Part shown: positions 40,782 to 47,772 of the stretch, one piece after another
Numbering within the stretch: position 1 is the first letter of the stretch
Layout of the letters: each line of letters begins with the position of its first letter
Assembly: GCF_002741055.1 (NCBI RefSeq)
Contig: NZ_CP016809.1
Span: forward strand, 124,001-188,000
DNA: 64,000 nucleotides
Direction of reading: 5' to 3'
From: Paenibacillus ihbetae
Lineage (GTDB): Bacteria; Bacillota; Bacilli; Paenibacillales; Paenibacillaceae
Notes under the pieces: model-generated
The model's database searches: none
The model's input: only the letters and a program-made list of their open reading frames with translations
What the model was told of the DNA's origin: nothing
Program-made: the position numbers and the translations under genes

Positions 40782-41636
40782 TTAATCCACCCCTGCAGCG
40801 GCAAACACCAGCACTCTCCCATCGGCATTGATCACCTGCGTGCCGTTGTCCAGCTCCGCCAATGGCCGGTCCCAATGAACGTGTCCGCAGCAAACAAGCA
40901 ACGGAGGCCCGGCGATAAGCTCTCGCCGGATCCCGGCATGGCCGGGAAGCCCACATGCAGGCACATCTGGACCTTGATGCAGCATGAGCACATCTGGATT
41001 GCGCCGCAGCAGTTTTTGCAGAGCACGCAAATAATCTTCCTCCGGCATCCGATTCGGCTTGTCCGCTCTTCCTGTTATCCCGCCCAGTCCGGCAATATTC
41101 AGCCCGCTGTGCAGCGTCATTCTAGGCTCGTCATAAAAATCAACGCCCGGGGCGGCCTCAAGCCTCGCTTTCCCTGCGGACGTAACCATATCGTGATTTC
41201 CCGCTACGCCCAGCACGGTGCCGAAATGCGAGCGGAAGGCTTCCCACACGGGAAGCGGATCGCCGCTTGAACCTCTATGAGCCGGGTCTCCGTACAGATC
41301 ACCGCACAAGAGCACGACGACACGTTCCGGATCAAACCGGGCACCATAGCTATCGAGCAGTAAGGCCAGAAATTCAGGAAGCTCCTCCCCAATCTGCCTC
41401 ACTCGCTGCTCTCCATCAATGGCTCCATGCCCTGCTGCGCCTTGCAGATCGGAAGCCAGGATTAGTGCGTCTACTTCATCCGGAAGCCCAACCATCTCTC
41501 CGAAGTATATCGGTAGATATTCATAGTTGACCCCCCTGCTCCCCGGAGCGGCTGCCGTATAAGGCAGCTGCTCGACCGGTTCCTCCGCGATGCTGACTAC
41601 TTTCAGCCGGGCTTCCCCTTTGCGACGTGATTTCAT
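40782..41636 (-). CDS. metallophosphoesterase
   Basis: 284 residues of the calcineurin-like phosphoesterase fold. Metal-ligand motifs in order: ASDLQG (D-x-Q in place of the usual D-x-H), LLCGDLYGD, VAGNHDMV, LMLHQGPD and CCGHVHWD. The Gln in motif I recurs in some uncharacterised bacterial groups. The ATG at 41636 has GGAG and GAGG upstream. It lies 27 bases downstream of the SUFU gene and probably shares its transcript. Substrate unknown. Confidence 0.82.
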   Translation of the reverse strand: MKSRRKGEARLKVVSIAEEPVEQLPYTAAAPGSRGVNYEYLPIYFGEMVGLPDEVDALILASDLQGAAGHGAIDGEQRVRQIGEELPEFLALLLDSYGARFDPERVVVLLCGDLYGDPAHRGSSGDPLPVWEAFRSHFGTVLGVAGNHDMVTSAGKARLEAAPGVDFYDEPRMTLHSGLNIAGLGGITGRADKPNRMPEEDYLRALQKLLRRNPDVLMLHQGPDVPACGLPGHAGIRRELIAGPPLLVCCGHVHWDRPLAELDNGTQVINADGRVLVFAAAGVD

Positions 41637-41663
41637 TACAACCTCAACTCCTGATTGCACGCT

Positions 41664-42725
41664 TTACCCAATGGTGGATACAACATTGCCGTCTTGGTCC
41701 TTGATATGAGTTTTAACGACTTGAATGGTAAATCCTTGATAACCCGCCAACTCGATTCTATCTTCCTTCGGCAGCAATTTTCGCGAAAGCTCGTCCGCGG
41801 TCGCCTCATCCAGCCTGAGTAGAACGCCTTGCTCCCCCGCTTCGTATCCGGTTTCCGCCCCAGGCTCCAATACAACCCTTAAATCTTGGCTTGCCAACAT
41901 CAAGTCCTTCCCTTTCAGCAGCCGGCCGCGAAGCAGCTTGCCGACCGTTCCTGCCTGCTTTGCCCCCAAGGTGAGCACGGCCGGCGTCTTGCTAAATAGA
42001 CGGTTTCTGCCGGGCTCCCAAGCCAATTGATCCACAAATAAGAAACCGGTATTCGAACCGTCCCGCTCCATGCCGTTCTGGACGGTCTCCGCTATCGCAG
42101 GAATCCGCAGGAGCGAATCTCGGGACAAATCGGTGATATAGCCGGGAAGGTCCGCTTGGCTGGCTTCCAATACGCCCGAAGTGCTCCATGTTTTCATCGC
42201 CTCCAGCTCATCCTCCGTAATCCCGACCATTTGCAGAAATTCAACTTTTCCATTGGGCGTGCCGACACCAGGGAGCTCGGGATCTTCTACGAAGGCGAGC
42301 GCGGTTAACTGCGTATCAGCCCCTAAACAAATCGGACCATTTGCGTCCAAATAATCGCCGGAAGCGAAAACGTTCCCGCTGCCAAAAACATAGCGTCCCA
42401 TGTTCTGGAGCAGGTTCAGCGCCCACATTGGCGGCTCCTCCTCATCTTCCGTGCGCGCCACTCGAAACGTAAGTTCAAATCCATAACCGCTGTACTCCGT
42501 ATTTTCCGATTCCTTCTCATACAGCTCGGAGAATCCGAACGTCACGATATGCCAATGCGGCAGCGGCTTCTCCGCTTTATAGGCACTCAGACCGTCCAGC
42601 GGGTCCTTGCCCCCAAGCATGTAAGGTAGAACCGTACCGTAATGCTTAGGCTCCTGGGCCCCATATAGCTTTTTCATTTGCTCTTCAATTGCATCCCAAC
42701 CGGTTGTAACTGCTTCTTCGTTCAT
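41664..42725 (-). CDS. SUFU (suppressor of fused) domain protein
   Basis: 353 residues. The first 180 match bacterial SUFU-domain proteins: an N-terminal helix, the HWHIVTFGFSELY strand and a long hydrophilic core (YGFELTFRVAR, WALNLLQNMGRYVF, LGADTQLTALAFVEDPEL, FLQMVGITEDELEAMKTW). The remaining half is a mixed alpha/beta extension without known motif. Bacterial SUFU proteins appear in polymorphic-toxin immunity and unknown roles. No toxin gene is adjacent. GGAGGG lies about 8 bases before the ATG. A 474-base gap upstream carries no credible gene. Confidence 0.85.
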   Translation of the reverse strand: MNEEAVTTGWDAIEEQMKKLYGAQEPKHYGTVLPYMLGGKDPLDGLSAYKAEKPLPHWHIVTFGFSELYEKESENTEYSGYGFELTFRVARTEDEEEPPMWALNLLQNMGRYVFGSGNVFASGDYLDANGPICLGADTQLTALAFVEDPELPGVGTPNGKVEFLQMVGITEDELEAMKTWSTSGVLEASQADLPGYITDLSRDSLLRIPAIAETVQNGMERDGSNTGFLFVDQLAWEPGRNRLFSKTPAVLTLGAKQAGTVGKLLRGRLLKGKDLMLASQDLRVVLEPGAETGYEAGEQGVLLRLDEATADELSRKLLPKEDRIELAGYQGFTIQVVKTHIKDQDGNVVSTIG

Positions 42726-43199: not shown

Positions 43200-43832
43200 C
43201 TAGGCCAAGCCATTGGGTTCAACCGGTTTACTGAGCCAGTGCTCGTCGGTTTGCACATGATTTTTCCGGACAAACTTGGCGACCGAGCGCTTAAAGTCCT
43301 CATAAGGAAATTCGGAGGCGAGCCGCACAACGTACCCCTCCTGCTCTCCGCCGCAACGGGACTGCTTCGTGTAGCACTGCTTTGCAGCTTCTTCGCTCCA
43401 CACCCCGCGGTACAGAACCGGAACAAGCGGAATTCCTAATTTCTCCGCCCACGCCTCAGTTTCATCCCAAGACAGGCAGATATTGCGGTCGTTCCAGACC
43501 GAGAACAGCATGAAATAGCCGGGCAAGGAGGTATACAGCAGCGAATGCTTGGCATATACATTCTCTCCGCAAAGCCGGTACCCTTCCGGAATCATATACC
43601 GGATTCCTCCGTGCAGCGTCTTCACATAGTGCCGGGAAGAGTGATCTTTACTGTCGAGCGACCTGGCGTGAATGAAGTTCGAGTACATCGTTGTGTTCTC
43701 TCCATCCATTTTCTCGGTAATCACAACCTCTTGTCCTGCAAAATGGTCCGTGTTTCGCAAAATTTTATCATCGTCCGTATAGCTTCTGGACCAGGGCAAG
43801 TGCATCGTTTTCGGATATTTCACTTTATTCAT
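43200..43832 (-). CDS. compact RNA ligase of the nucleotidyltransferase superfamily
   Basis: 210 residues, about the size of a bare ligase adenylyltransferase domain. The order of motifs fits ATP-dependent RNA ligases: I, K41-M-D-G-E-N in VITEKMDGENTTMY (K41 the AMP-accepting lysine); III, YFMLFSVWN at 106-114; IV, EGYVVR at 165-170; V, VAKFVRKNH at 184-192. There is no OB-fold domain after motif V. The ATG at 43832 follows GAGGTG by 5 bases. It lies 10 bases after the kinase-HD gene, so the two form an end-healing and sealing pair. Confidence 0.85.
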   Translation of the reverse strand: MNKVKYPKTMHLPWSRSYTDDDKILRNTDHFAGQEVVITEKMDGENTTMYSNFIHARSLDSKDHSSRHYVKTLHGGIRYMIPEGYRLCGENVYAKHSLLYTSLPGYFMLFSVWNDRNICLSWDETEAWAEKLGIPLVPVLYRGVWSEEAAKQCYTKQSRCGGEQEGYVVRLASEFPYEDFKRSVAKFVRKNHVQTDEHWLSKPVEPNGLA

Positions 43833-43842
43833 CTCATCACCT

Positions 43843-44802
43843 CTATTTGGCAAACGTGTCCGCTTCCGCGAAGAAATACAGCTCTGCCAGCATCCGGTCG
43901 CCAAGCAAATGATAGATCTTGGAAGCACCGGCATCACCGCCGTGCAGAATCTCCATATGGAAGCTCACCATGTTCACTACATGCAAAATAAAATCATCGC
44001 CATACCCCAGTTCCTTCAAAACATGGCAGACGATAATGGCCGATACATGCTCATGTCCAAAGTAGGAGTAATACCCCCGGTTCGGCTTCCATACCTTGCA
44101 CAGCGGCTTGCCAGTATCATGAAACAAGGCTGCCAGCTGCATTTCGAACAGATGCTCCCCTTCGTAAAACGTATGGACATACTCCAAAACGGCATGCGTA
44201 TGCTCGGACAGCGTTTTGGAATGATGGGGATTTTCCTGGTCATATCCCAGCATCACGCTAAAATATGGAGAGCGCCGCAGGTAAGCGAACAGCTCGTCAT
44301 GACCCGGGTTCCGTTCAAGAAGCCGCTCTAGTGCGGCCCGCTCTATACCGGCATCTGCCGGCGTATGGACGATATGCAGCTTATTGAAGCCTTCGGCAAG
44401 CAAGGGAAACTCGAAGTTTTTGGCATATTTCTCAAGCACCTTTTCCTCGATTTTACGCTTTCTCGCCTGTACCCGTTCTCTGGCCAATTCGTAGGGCGTG
44501 ATACAGACATGGCATTCCACCGGAAACGAGCTAAACCGCTTCAGGAATTGTATCCTTCGGTCGCGGGCAACATTGGTCGCATCAAATACGACGTTTCTTC
44601 CCGACCCCAGCGCCTGCTCAATCTCGGCAAAAGCTTCATCAAAAATCCGGTAGGTGTTTTTCTGACGCGACTCGCTCCCGAACAATCTTTCCCGGATGGC
44701 ATCCGTCGCCACAAGCACGGCTCTTTCCCGTTTGCAGCACTCTTTTGCGTATTCGCTCTTACCGCTGCCGGGAATGCCGGCCAGCATATGAATGGTGTTC
44801 AT
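43843..44802 (-). CDS. polynucleotide-kinase-like P-loop domain fused to an HD phosphohydrolase
   Basis: 319 residues. The N half is a kinase of the T4-Pnk/AAA_33 group: P-loop GIPGSGKS at 9-16, TDAIRERLFG at 33-42 (Pnk-type acidic acceptor motif), VVFDATN at 72-78 and basic lid arginines near 82-83 and 109-116. The C half (about 195-310) is an HD domain with H201, H228-D229 in LFHDTGKP and the HEH at 250-252. The ATG follows AGGAGG by 8 bases. Kinase plus HD suits repair of 5'-OH and 2',3'-cyclic or 3'-phosphate RNA ends. Known HD-Pnk proteins have the reverse domain order. Confidence 0.85.
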   Translation of the reverse strand: MNTIHMLAGIPGSGKSEYAKECCKRERAVLVATDAIRERLFGSESRQKNTYRIFDEAFAEIEQALGSGRNVVFDATNVARDRRIQFLKRFSSFPVECHVCITPYELARERVQARKRKIEEKVLEKYAKNFEFPLLAEGFNKLHIVHTPADAGIERAALERLLERNPGHDELFAYLRRSPYFSVMLGYDQENPHHSKTLSEHTHAVLEYVHTFYEGEHLFEMQLAALFHDTGKPLCKVWKPNRGYYSYFGHEHVSAIIVCHVLKELGYGDDFILHVVNMVSFHMEILHGGDAGASKIYHLLGDRMLAELYFFAEADTFAK

Positions 44803-44881
44803 CTTCATCACCTCCTTTCCGTGCGCTAAATGACAGTAAATCAACCGTCTCCGCTCAATAAACAGACAACCCAATGAAAAC

Positions 44882-44927
44882 AAAAAAAATCGGCGAACGA
44901 AAGGATAAACACATTCATTCGCCGATT
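44882..44927 (-). terminator. strong terminator-like hairpin upstream of the kinase-HD gene
   Basis: On the minus strand AATCGGCGAA (44927-44918) pairs perfectly with TTCGCCGATT (44897-44888) around a 20-base loop, followed by TTTTTTTTG. It lies 80 bases before the kinase ATG and 340 bases after the WG-repeat gene. It may end that transcript or act as an attenuator for the repair cassette. The rest of the 462-base gap shows no SD-backed gene. Confidence 0.75.
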
Positions 44928-45264
44928 GAACAAGAGTATGGGACTTGCTATTCCGCAAAATCTACGTGTCTTTTCTTTCTGCAAGGATGCAGCTTTTCAT
45001 TAACTTATCGTTATCGCCGCAGCATTATGACCATCTTTACATGATACACTGGAAAAGCAAGGAAGCGGTAGGTACAAAGTATTCAGAATGGCGGGTGGTC
45101 CTACATACGCATGAGCGGAGAAGGAATGGGTCGATCGGGCAAGTCAGCGCCTGAGGGGAATCCCTTGTGTTTTTATGACTGGACTCTAACAATCCCTCCT
45201 CCAATCCTCCATCTGGAAAATGCACTTAACACGGCGCACCCAATTGATATATGAGCATAAAGTC

Positions 45265-47772
45265 CTATGAATGAAATGCCTTCCAGAACTCCCCCTCGGT
45301 ATTTAGGATGTTCATGATCTGAGTGAATGGAATTGTGAATGTCGGAAAACCAGCAGCATAAGGAGCGATCTCATAGGGGGCAAACACCAGATGCAGCGCG
45401 TCCTCGGTTACGTAAAAGGGCTGATTGGCAGAGATTCCCTTATAGCTATCCGGAAATACATACGAATAGTGCGGATCCTCTTGAATCTGCTTGCCGACGA
45501 TACGGCTGAGCTCCTTCACATAATCACTGCCCGGCTTAAACAAATCCTTCAATTCATACATCGTCCCCTTGTCAAGATTGATCACGGCATACACTTTGGT
45601 AGGCATGCCATGCGCGGCACCAAAGGGATAGTTATATCCGGTGAGCTCCAGTTCAAGGAGCTGCTGCTTGTAGAAAATAACGTCAAAATCACCCGTATAC
45701 GAGTAATCCAGCTGTTGGTTCGGAGGAATAGATTTGACCTGCGACATTTCCCTAAGCTTCGCATTCAACGTTTGCTGAGCTGCTTGATCCCTCATTCCCG
45801 CGAGCTGTGGATAATAAACTAAGTAATCCGGATTGGGTTTATACTTCTCTTCGATGACCTGATAGGGCGGGTTCAGCGGAATAACCGTGTTTTGCCTCCA
45901 TATGACGTGGCCTGACCGGTCAAGGTAAGACAAGCGCTGATCGACCAATGCTTTAATTAGCCCTCCGGGTTCCAGCGTGAGCGAACCGCTGCCGTCCACT
46001 CGGGGATATCCTGGGGCGGGATGTCCTGTACGGTCAATGAAATACGTCTGCTTCCCGTCATAAACCGAAGCCAAGCCGTGCTGGTAGTCGGAGACATCAC
46101 GATACATAAATTCAGTAAGTCTCTTCCCTCCCCAATCGGCAATGGCATAGATCGAGCCAATATATGGCTGGTCGGGATCAACTGCACGCCCAAGCGCAAA
46201 CCGTTCTTCATTCATATCCCGAATATCGTTATACTCCGGCTGGATGATCCATTTACCTTGTGAATCAATGACCCCGTACTTCCACCTGTAATCCTCCGCC
46301 GTGTTCACGATCGCTCTGCCTTGATGAAACGGAAATGCCGAGGTGTACGTCGGCGATATAACGATATTCCCCTGCTCGTTGATGTAACCATATTTACCGT
46401 TTGGATCCTGCTGAAAAGCCAACAGCCCATCGCCAAGCGGTCCGACATAGGCAAATGGATAGTCGGCCAATCGCCGGCCATGGGAATCTATGAGAGCGTA
46501 ATGGTTGTTTTTTATCTTCACAACGGCTTTCCCATCGGCAAAATCATTCGCTTCCTCGAATTGGGCAGGAATCACCTCCCGGCCTTCTGCATCAAGATAT
46601 CCGTATCGGCTGGCCGCTCCATTACCGCTGCCCTGATCGGTTACATAATAAACCGCCCTGCCTTCCTTAAGTGCCGAAATGTACGGATATGCTCGTCGCG
46701 TCAGCACATTTCCATGTTCGTCAATCATTTTAAATCCCTGATGATCGATCACAATCGCCTGATGCTCCGAGAACGGACTGATGGACTGATATATGGGCGC
46801 TACTACATAACGTTCAGATCTGTCAATAAGACCATAATTGCCGCGCATCCCTACAATGGCAAGGCCATTATCCTGAAAATCCTGTGCATCTTCATACTTT
46901 GGTTGTATGATTAATTTTCCGCTGCGATCAATATATCCCCACTTGGTTCTATTCGTGGTCTTTACGGAAGCCGGAAATAATCCGACCGGCTGCCGGGGCT
47001 CCCACCTGCTGGCCAGCATTCGCTTGATCCGGCTCTCAAGCTCTAACAGCGTTTCGCGTGCAGGGTAAGGCTCCCGGAAACGGAGTGCCATGCGAACCGA
47101 CGCCAGAGCCGCCTCCGGCATTCCAGCCCGGTATTGCGCATCCGCCAGGTAATACCAATAGAAGGAATAATCCGGATGTTTTTGCGTCAGCCTCTCGTAG
47201 TATTTTACGACGACAGGAAAGTAACGAGGGTAAACATCCGGCGCGGTCACAAACCTCCCTTGGCTCCACCTGACGACTTCGACTCGATAGGCTTCGCCCG
47301 TATCGTGTATCCATAACACAATTTCAGCTTGGCCATCCGGTCCCGAAACCCCCGGGATATCCAACACATCGATATAGCTGTAACTCATTTCAGGAGGTGC
47401 GATATCCTTAAGTCCCTCCGATGTCCAGTCGTAAATTGACAATTTGGACCAGATGGACCCAACCTGCCAACCAACGATAATTTGGTTCTTGCCGGGAGCC
47501 ATCACAGGAACCGCACCTAATAAAGTGACCGCATATCCCTGTCCCATGATATTGGCAATGACCTCATAGCTGCCATTGCGGTCATTTAGCACAAACAGAT
47601 AAAGCTCATCATTCAGTCGGTATACACCGGCTATTTCGGGAATCCGATCTCCCGTGATGTCGGCAGCGATAACTGCCGCATGATCCATGGGCTTACCAAT
47701 GGTGACAAGCTCAGCACCGTGGGGCAGATAGGCTTTAGCGATTTGCGCCAGCTGCTGATCGTTAACGGTCAT
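45265..47772 (-). CDS. large WG-repeat protein with DUF3298-like C-terminus
   Basis: 835 residues. The first 180 resemble a beta-propeller/FG-GAP-type segment (VIAADITGDRIPEIAG). About 185-260 is a short helical TPR-like stretch (YWYYLADAQYRAGMPEAALA). About 285-620 holds eight or more WG repeats (KWGYIDRSGKLIIQPKYEDA, KYGYINEQGNIVISPTY, KYGVIDSQGKWIIQPEY). The last 190 residues resemble DUF3298/RsiV-type domains. No signal peptide or membrane anchor is visible, unlike many WG proteins. Function unknown; interaction scaffold is the usual guess. Monocistronic. Confidence 0.82.
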   Translation of the reverse strand: MTVNDQQLAQIAKAYLPHGAELVTIGKPMDHAAVIAADITGDRIPEIAGVYRLNDELYLFVLNDRNGSYEVIANIMGQGYAVTLLGAVPVMAPGKNQIIVGWQVGSIWSKLSIYDWTSEGLKDIAPPEMSYSYIDVLDIPGVSGPDGQAEIVLWIHDTGEAYRVEVVRWSQGRFVTAPDVYPRYFPVVVKYYERLTQKHPDYSFYWYYLADAQYRAGMPEAALASVRMALRFREPYPARETLLELESRIKRMLASRWEPRQPVGLFPASVKTTNRTKWGYIDRSGKLIIQPKYEDAQDFQDNGLAIVGMRGNYGLIDRSERYVVAPIYQSISPFSEHQAIVIDHQGFKMIDEHGNVLTRRAYPYISALKEGRAVYYVTDQGSGNGAASRYGYLDAEGREVIPAQFEEANDFADGKAVVKIKNNHYALIDSHGRRLADYPFAYVGPLGDGLLAFQQDPNGKYGYINEQGNIVISPTYTSAFPFHQGRAIVNTAEDYRWKYGVIDSQGKWIIQPEYNDIRDMNEERFALGRAVDPDQPYIGSIYAIADWGGKRLTEFMYRDVSDYQHGLASVYDGKQTYFIDRTGHPAPGYPRVDGSGSLTLEPGGLIKALVDQRLSYLDRSGHVIWRQNTVIPLNPPYQVIEEKYKPNPDYLVYYPQLAGMRDQAAQQTLNAKLREMSQVKSIPPNQQLDYSYTGDFDVIFYKQQLLELELTGYNYPFGAAHGMPTKVYAVINLDKGTMYELKDLFKPGSDYVKELSRIVGKQIQEDPHYSYVFPDSYKGISANQPFYVTEDALHLVFAPYEIAPYAAGFPTFTIPFTQIMNILNTEGEFWKAFHS

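Follow-up and report, generated by a model that had tools for sequence, protein, structure and literature searches.

On the minus strand of a stretch of the Paenibacillus ihbetae genome (contig NZ_CP016809.1, positions 124,001 to 188,000; this whole stretch of 64,000 nucleotides (nt) is referred to below as the window, and coordinates follow its numbering), two neighbouring genes form a mirror-image, rearranged variant of a known module that couples an HD-kinase with a DRB0100-type ligase. The pair is predicted to heal and reseal broken RNA ends, with an estimated probability of about 0.78. The first gene (43843..44802, minus strand) encodes a kinase-HD protein of 319 amino acids (aa), in which a Pnk-type P-loop kinase (residues 1-148) precedes an HD phosphohydrolase domain (residues 154-319). 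The second gene (43200..43832, minus strand) encodes an ATP-dependent ligase of 210 aa, which comprises a nucleotidyltransferase (NTase) domain only and carries K41 as its motif I lysine. Whether DRB0100 of Deinococcus radiodurans and its partner DRB0098 serve DNA or RNA repair has been ambiguous for years: the purified ligase was inactive, and the mutant had no radiation phenotype. The present cassette, from Bacilli, is assembled differently and could serve as another version for testing what these poorly understood enzymes would do. Its remarkable aspects are the mirror-image order and a healing enzyme whose phage relatives adjoin other ligases. If the pair seals RNA, the result would have direct implications for the substrate of the DRB0100 family, whose members span many phyla among the best 80 ligase loci, and the cassette would supply a natural RNA ligase of very small size.

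The TAG stop codon of the kinase-HD gene is separated from the ATG of the ligase gene by exactly 10 bases, and each gene is preceded by a strong Shine-Dalgarno sequence. The first of these is AGGAGG (44811..44816, minus strand), located within AAAGGAGGTGA and 8 nt 5' of the kinase-HD ATG, while the second is GAGGTG (43838..43843, minus strand), which overlaps the final base of the kinase-HD stop codon. AGGAGG also occurs within 25 nt of the aligned kinase-HD start in 17 of 30 Bacillota loci, and slightly further upstream in some others. A Pfam scan of the kinase-HD protein, performed on a 321-codon frame that starts two codons earlier than the 319-aa call, assigned AAA_33 to residues 7-135 (E 3.7e-27) and HD to residues 202-319 (E 6.6e-6); in the ligase, RNA_ligase (PF09414) was assigned to residues 35-188 (E 1.3e-35). 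In an alignment of 19 kinase-HD homologues, the kinase residues K15, D34, R37, D74, N77 and R114 and the HD residues H201, H228, D229, H250, H282 and D315 are invariant. In an alignment of 10 ligases, DRB0100 included, the same holds for K41, E90, E165 and K186, which we take to be motifs I, III, IV and V. The aligned catalytic residues presumably have the roles expected from the kinase, HD and ligase families. AlphaFold predicted the folds with a mean pLDDT of 89.0 for the ligase and 93.9 for the kinase-HD protein. No additional domain follows the NTase fold in the ligase model, and the protein ends at residue 210. An earlier sequence-only reading had described the gene layout, both sets of domains and the lack of a C-terminal ligase domain, and had proposed profile searches and structure prediction as checks; these agree with it on each of these points.

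Conservation of the pair among relatives, which that reading had proposed as a further check, was confirmed in a survey of 344 genomes of the order, with matches counted at E 0.001. Any kinase-HD match was present in 41 genomes and any ligase match in 33. On the kinase side, 14 genomes were excluded, which contained weak kinase-only or HD-only matches, fragments (G276, G066 and G320) or, in G039, a distant full-length kinase-HD (34% identity) without a ligase. On the ligase side, six were excluded: G283 (72 residues at a contig end), G110 and G259 (fragments), G136 and G358 (weak matches), and G099 (inner stop). The full-length close kinase-HD and the full-length unbroken ligase are found in the same 27 of the 344 genomes, and in 27 of 27 they are adjacent with the kinase-HD first; in G164, G260 and G280 the kinase-HD was matched as two pieces inside one open frame. 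The pairing of the two genes is thus above chance. In an earlier sample of 100 relatives, a ligase match was present in 12 and adjoined a kinase-HD in 11, the remaining genome being G099. The kinase-HD of G276 is shortened to approximately its first 100 residues and ends just before a SUFU gene, which is visible decay. The cassette is thus an accessory unit, present in some Paenibacillus and in related bacteria of soil. An alignment-profile search of 398 Bacillota genomes recovered the ligase only in the window's own genome, with few Paenibacillaceae among the entries listed. In a protein search, at least 7,965 related proteins were present among 8,000 candidates scored, a count that does not require all of them to belong to the family.

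The ligase shares 54% identity over 207 residues with DRB0100 (LigB/DdrP), likewise a protein of 210 aa, and its full-length similarity, size and NTase-only build place it in the DRB0100 family. By gene order and products, as given in PMC1997131 and PMC11833690, DR_RS15960, DR_RS15955 and DR_RS15950 correspond to DRB0100, DRB0099 and DRB0098, respectively. DRB0098 carries the two healing domains as an HD-kinase. When named genomes were scanned with the ligase alignment, 575 related stretches emerged, and the partners in the best 80 were compared. A kinase-HD gene lies just upstream in 30 loci, which are exactly the Bacillota loci of the set. Of the other 50, 39 have an HD-kinase downstream, whole in 37 and split over two frames in two (L133 and L143). 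Ligase and kinase form a single open frame in four actinobacterial loci, and no partner was found in seven, among them L106, a 3.3-kb contig that ends soon past the ligase. Because a DRB0100-family ligase is usually partnered by an HD-kinase, the cassette is a rearranged version of a known module. The sequence-only reading was correct in its domains, domain order and conservation but missed both the DRB0100 family and its usual HD-kinase partner. At least five of the 26 genome loci checked recur among the best 80, the fifth and others having been traced by an exact 600-base match; consequently, the genome survey and the survey of the best 80 loci are not independent.

Phylogenetic trees provide further detail on this module. 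No kinase-HD-paired ligase falls inside the set of other bacterial and phage ligases (dividing branch 87/88), and with a distant outgroup the kinase-HD-paired ligases do not form one clade. In the kinase tree, a single group (100/97) unites the fusions with the HD-kinases of the loci and excludes the Bacillota kinase-HD proteins; the metagenomic HD-kinases P0236 and P0239 and the phage G protein are placed elsewhere on long branches, with uncertain rooting. Due to these long branches and the lack of a sure root, neither a domain swap nor separate fusions are claimed. The four actinobacterial single frames (L121:4146-6659, L131:4935-6686, L144:4929-6893 and L146:4842-6746) consist of a ligase, a middle region of about 190-260 aa and a kinase. 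The middle region has no Pfam HD match in the two that were scanned, and of the four, one reads LLHD at the HD motif, the remaining three HG or WR; HD function may therefore have been lost in these fusions. Some Myxococcota and Pseudomonadota (L110, L117, L118 and L129) have another, more distant member of the ligase family behind the HD-kinase gene, as the third open reading frame downstream; Pfam scans of L117 and L118 confirmed RNA_ligase in both. In bacteria and in the Caulobacter jumbo phage CcrSC, some DRB0100-type ligases carry about 150 extra N-terminal residues that lack a Pfam match (L113:2915-3997, L119:4485-5627, L136:905-1969 and L152:3551-4630); a search for a kinase partner in the three bacterial loci found none.

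Repair of RNA rather than DNA, the substrate preferred in the sequence-only reading, appears to be the better interpretation, and it is favoured by the ligase fold and by the neighbours of kinase-HD genes in phages. In a structure comparison, the AlphaFold model of the ligase fits T4 RNA ligase 2 (Rnl2) better than DNA ligases. The Rnl2-type NTase fold is present, with an alignment that covers T4 Rnl2 only up to residue 232; the Rnl2-type C-terminal domain is absent from the window ligase. In Rnl2-type ligases, the C-terminal domain is needed for sealing. PMC12153264 deals with a different ligase family, Rnl3. Some Bacillus and Lysinibacillus phages encode full-length kinase-HD proteins, with a coverage of at least 80% in 11 of 19 matched records, and all six phage records inspected have an RNA ligase, predicted or annotated, no more than about 5 kb away. 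These ligases include an Rnl1-type enzyme (PF09511) in PJN02 and KLEB27-3, an annotated RnlA-like protein in FADO, and a combination of OB-fold and RNA_ligase domains in vB_BcoS-136 and LC76P1. In phage G, a gene annotated as RNA ligase directly follows the kinase-HD, and in LC76P1 RlaP also adjoins it. A homing endonuclease gene is located between the RNA ligase and the kinase-HD in PJN02 (L148:4262-4984; GIY-YIG according to Pfam) and in FADO (L160:2262-2984).

A comparable pattern was obtained for IMG/VR loci, where 37 of the best 80 of 318 relatives hold a kinase-HD. An RNA ligase or RlaP is nearby in 28 of these 37 (23 with a ligase, 5 with RlaP only), compared with 8 of the 43 other loci. 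The 37 loci include phage G again (L197) and the near-duplicates L184 and L185; the queries were derived from the inspected phages, and for one of them, the PJN02 gene at 8864-9790 of L148, annotation alone identifies an RNA ligase. A DRB0100-type profile gave two weak matches in the 37 loci (18.7 and 25.7 bits, compared with more than 150 for family members), so no viral kinase-HD pairs with that ligase, as far as seen. Of the sequence evidence, the proximity of kinase-HD genes to phage RNA ligases speaks most strongly for action of the healing enzyme on RNA.

Under the main alternative, which has been proposed for the D. radiodurans DRB0098-DRB0100 operon, the pair would mend strand breaks in DNA that have 5'-OH and 3'-phosphate ends. 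This is considered unlikely, since the ligase fold is nearer to RNA ligases and the phage kinase-HD genes lie near RNA ligases and RlaP, although PJN02, FADO and vB_BcoS-136 also carry an annotated DNA ligase. Regulation points in the same direction. No perfect copy of GAACNNNNGTTC, which we take to be a LexA-type box, was found in 31 cassette leaders, and one-mismatch sites occur in five, at differing places; LexA control was accordingly rejected. DNA repair is favoured, on the other hand, by the reports, in PMC1997131, that the D. radiodurans operon is radiation-induced and that DRB0098 phosphorylates 5'-OH DNA. DRB0099 is described in PMC11833690 as a PARG acting on ADP-ribosylated RNA or DNA ends; according to that paper, the operon may function in repair.

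Several observations weigh against RNA sealing by the cassette. According to PMC1997131, DRB0100 forms lysyl-AMP on K40 but ligated neither DNA nor RNA in vitro, and adding DRB0098 and DRB0099 still gave no DNA ligation. DRB0098 mutants in the HD motif retained a phosphatase signal, possibly from contamination, so the activity could not be assigned to this motif. PMC3893189 reports that PprA restores the joining of DNA ends by LigB/DRB0100, a point in favour of a DNA role. The DRB0100 knockout is described in PMC1978522 as fully radiation-resistant, a result that counts against both the RNA and the DNA interpretations. In the Foldseek comparison, a structure named DNA ligase appears at rank 20 (3qwu), followed by African swine fever virus DNA ligases. 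The DNA ligase genes annotated in the three phages lie within about 3 kb of the kinase-HD, which makes the argument from RNA linkage somewhat weaker. Moreover, the viral and phage kinase-HD proteins are distant (approximately 22-33% identity), and 9 of the 37 viral loci have no ligase or RlaP match; the kinase-HD lies at a contig end in four of these nine (L161, L162, L178 and L208) and not in the other five. Finally, no target RNA or nuclease gene is linked to the cassette.

The absence of ligation by DRB0100 leads to another alternative: rather than sealing, the ligase-like protein would transfer AMP to RNA 5' ends as a cap or tag, and the kinase-HD would prepare the ends. Self-adenylylation of DRB0100 without ligation (PMC1997131) and the NTase-only architecture are consistent with this proposal. 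It is nevertheless very unlikely, given the invariance of the residues of motifs I, III, IV and V in the 10 aligned ligases and the company that related phage kinase-HD genes keep with other RNA ligases, some of which have an added OB-fold domain.

In the preferred mechanism of RNA repair, the breaks would be made by metal-independent RNases that leave a cyclic phosphate and a 5'-OH, and the target would be a cleaved tRNA or another structured RNA. The kinase domain would place a phosphate onto the 5'-OH end. At the other end, the HD domain would open a 2',3'-cyclic phosphate and remove it, or take off a 3'-phosphate. The ligase would then be adenylylated on K41 with ATP and join the 5'-phosphate to the 3'-OH. 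A broader and rather doubtful proposal treats the kinase-HD as a portable enzyme for healing RNA ends. It would have originated independently of HD-Pnk, probably in Bacilli phages, and would have joined with three or more kinds of RNA ligase. Among Bacillota, it would have captured a DRB0100 ligase and a SUFU immunity gene; the result would be an anti-toxin unit with two tiers, SUFU blocking an incoming nuclease and the pair repairing RNA that this nuclease has cut.

The SUFU-domain gene (PF05076, E 6.3e-43) is located at 41664..42725 on the minus strand. SUFU proteins are immunity proteins of polymorphic toxins (PMC3482391). In 14 of 30 Bacillota loci, a SUFU gene is found no further than about 5 kb from the cassette; its side and arrangement vary. 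Full-length SUFU is present in 21 of the 27 cassette genomes (in G291 with an inner stop) and no more than 5 kb from the cassette in 8 of these 21. Co-occurrence gave a Fisher p of 1.3e-5 and nearness a binomial p of 7e-17 (1e-7 counted as four arrangements), values uncorrected for genome relatedness. Because 108 of the 130 genomes with a SUFU match, out of 344, lack the cassette, the gene is ranked as a possible third member and is kept outside the mechanism. The sequence-only reading had suggested that the RNA is cut by anticodon nucleases, toxins or phage; no recurrent nuclease or toxin partner was noticed among the 30 largest flank clusters, which were read by eye rather than annotated singly and contain many antisense frames. 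In PADLOC 2.0, the ligase had no match, the kinase-HD matched Cas3 models only, over its HD half, and among eight flanking proteins matches were limited to a WYL regulator and, weakly, a metallophosphoesterase; a defence island was therefore rejected.

Upstream, a hairpin with a T run (44882..44927, minus strand; fold -20.1 kcal/mol, z -5.7), which escaped a short-loop terminator scan, resembles a terminator and suggests that the cassette has its own promoter. It separates the cassette from a gene for a WG-repeat protein with a DUF3298 domain (45265-47772), a gene found near the cassette only in L068 among the 30 Bacillota loci; the ligase region of L068 is the same as that of G002. No Rfam match reached the gathering score in the 64-kb window. 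A T-box, riboswitch or other leader RNA was rejected, the sole match being LhrC at chance level (E 0.39, 44883-45008).

Known end-repair systems share parts of this design. T4 Pnk/Rnl1 and bacterial HD-Pnk/ligase pairs heal and seal cut tRNA or RNA. Like the cassette, T4 Pnkp with Rnl1 has the kinase first and the phosphatase last; the T4 phosphatase, however, is of the HAD type, and the ligase families differ. No PNK3P or HAD match at E 1 or better, as would indicate a T4 Pnkp-type DxD phosphatase, appeared in the Pfam scan of the kinase-HD. Clostridium thermocellum Pnkp/Hen1 and Pnkp1-Rnl-Hen1 differ in that a Hen1 methyltransferase and a fused metallophosphoesterase are absent from both cassette proteins and the seven flanking proteins scanned; of 30 Bacillota loci, only 2 contain a homologue of the separate metallophosphoesterase gene (40782-41660). 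HD-Pnk of the Runella slithyformis type and the HD-kinase of phage RM378 also combine an HD phosphohydrolase and a Pnk kinase in one polypeptide. In both, the HD domain comes first, as in RM378p110 (HD 35-94, kinase 189-325; annotated "probable poly A polymerase"), whereas in the cassette protein the kinase (7-135) precedes the HD domain (202-319). Blondal et al. reportedly described the PNKP of phage RM378 in 2005; RM378p110 is probably that enzyme and, if so, its HD-first order gives no precedent for the kinase-HD order. The reversed order stated in the sequence-only reading is thus seen against both DRB0098 and the RM378 protein. Its further statement that this exact pair had not been studied stands in part. 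No description of a kinase-first, HD-last enzyme was found in the literature searched, which leaves most subscription journals outside its coverage and is no proof of absence, but the DRB0100/DRB0098 relatives have been published, including the failed ligation (PMC1997131). The kinase-HD proteins of phages FADO, PJN02, vB_BcoS-136, LC76P1, KLEB27-3 and G have the same domain order as the cassette protein, to which they are 22-31% identical, and an RNA ligase nearby; in contrast, this ligase is Rnl1-type, OB-fold type or an annotated RNA ligase rather than DRB0100-type, and the gene order varies. The DRB0100-DRB0099-DRB0098 operon of D. radiodurans shares with the cassette the same two healing domains, in neighbouring genes, and a ligase that is 54% identical. 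It also contains a PARG gene (DRB0099); a single-sequence search located this gene in 1 of 147 loci, that of D. radiodurans, and in none of the other 146, and PARG was rejected as a part of the module. In D. radiodurans, an HD-kinase accompanies a ligase gene that comes first, whereas in the P. ihbetae cassette a kinase-HD accompanies a ligase gene that comes last.
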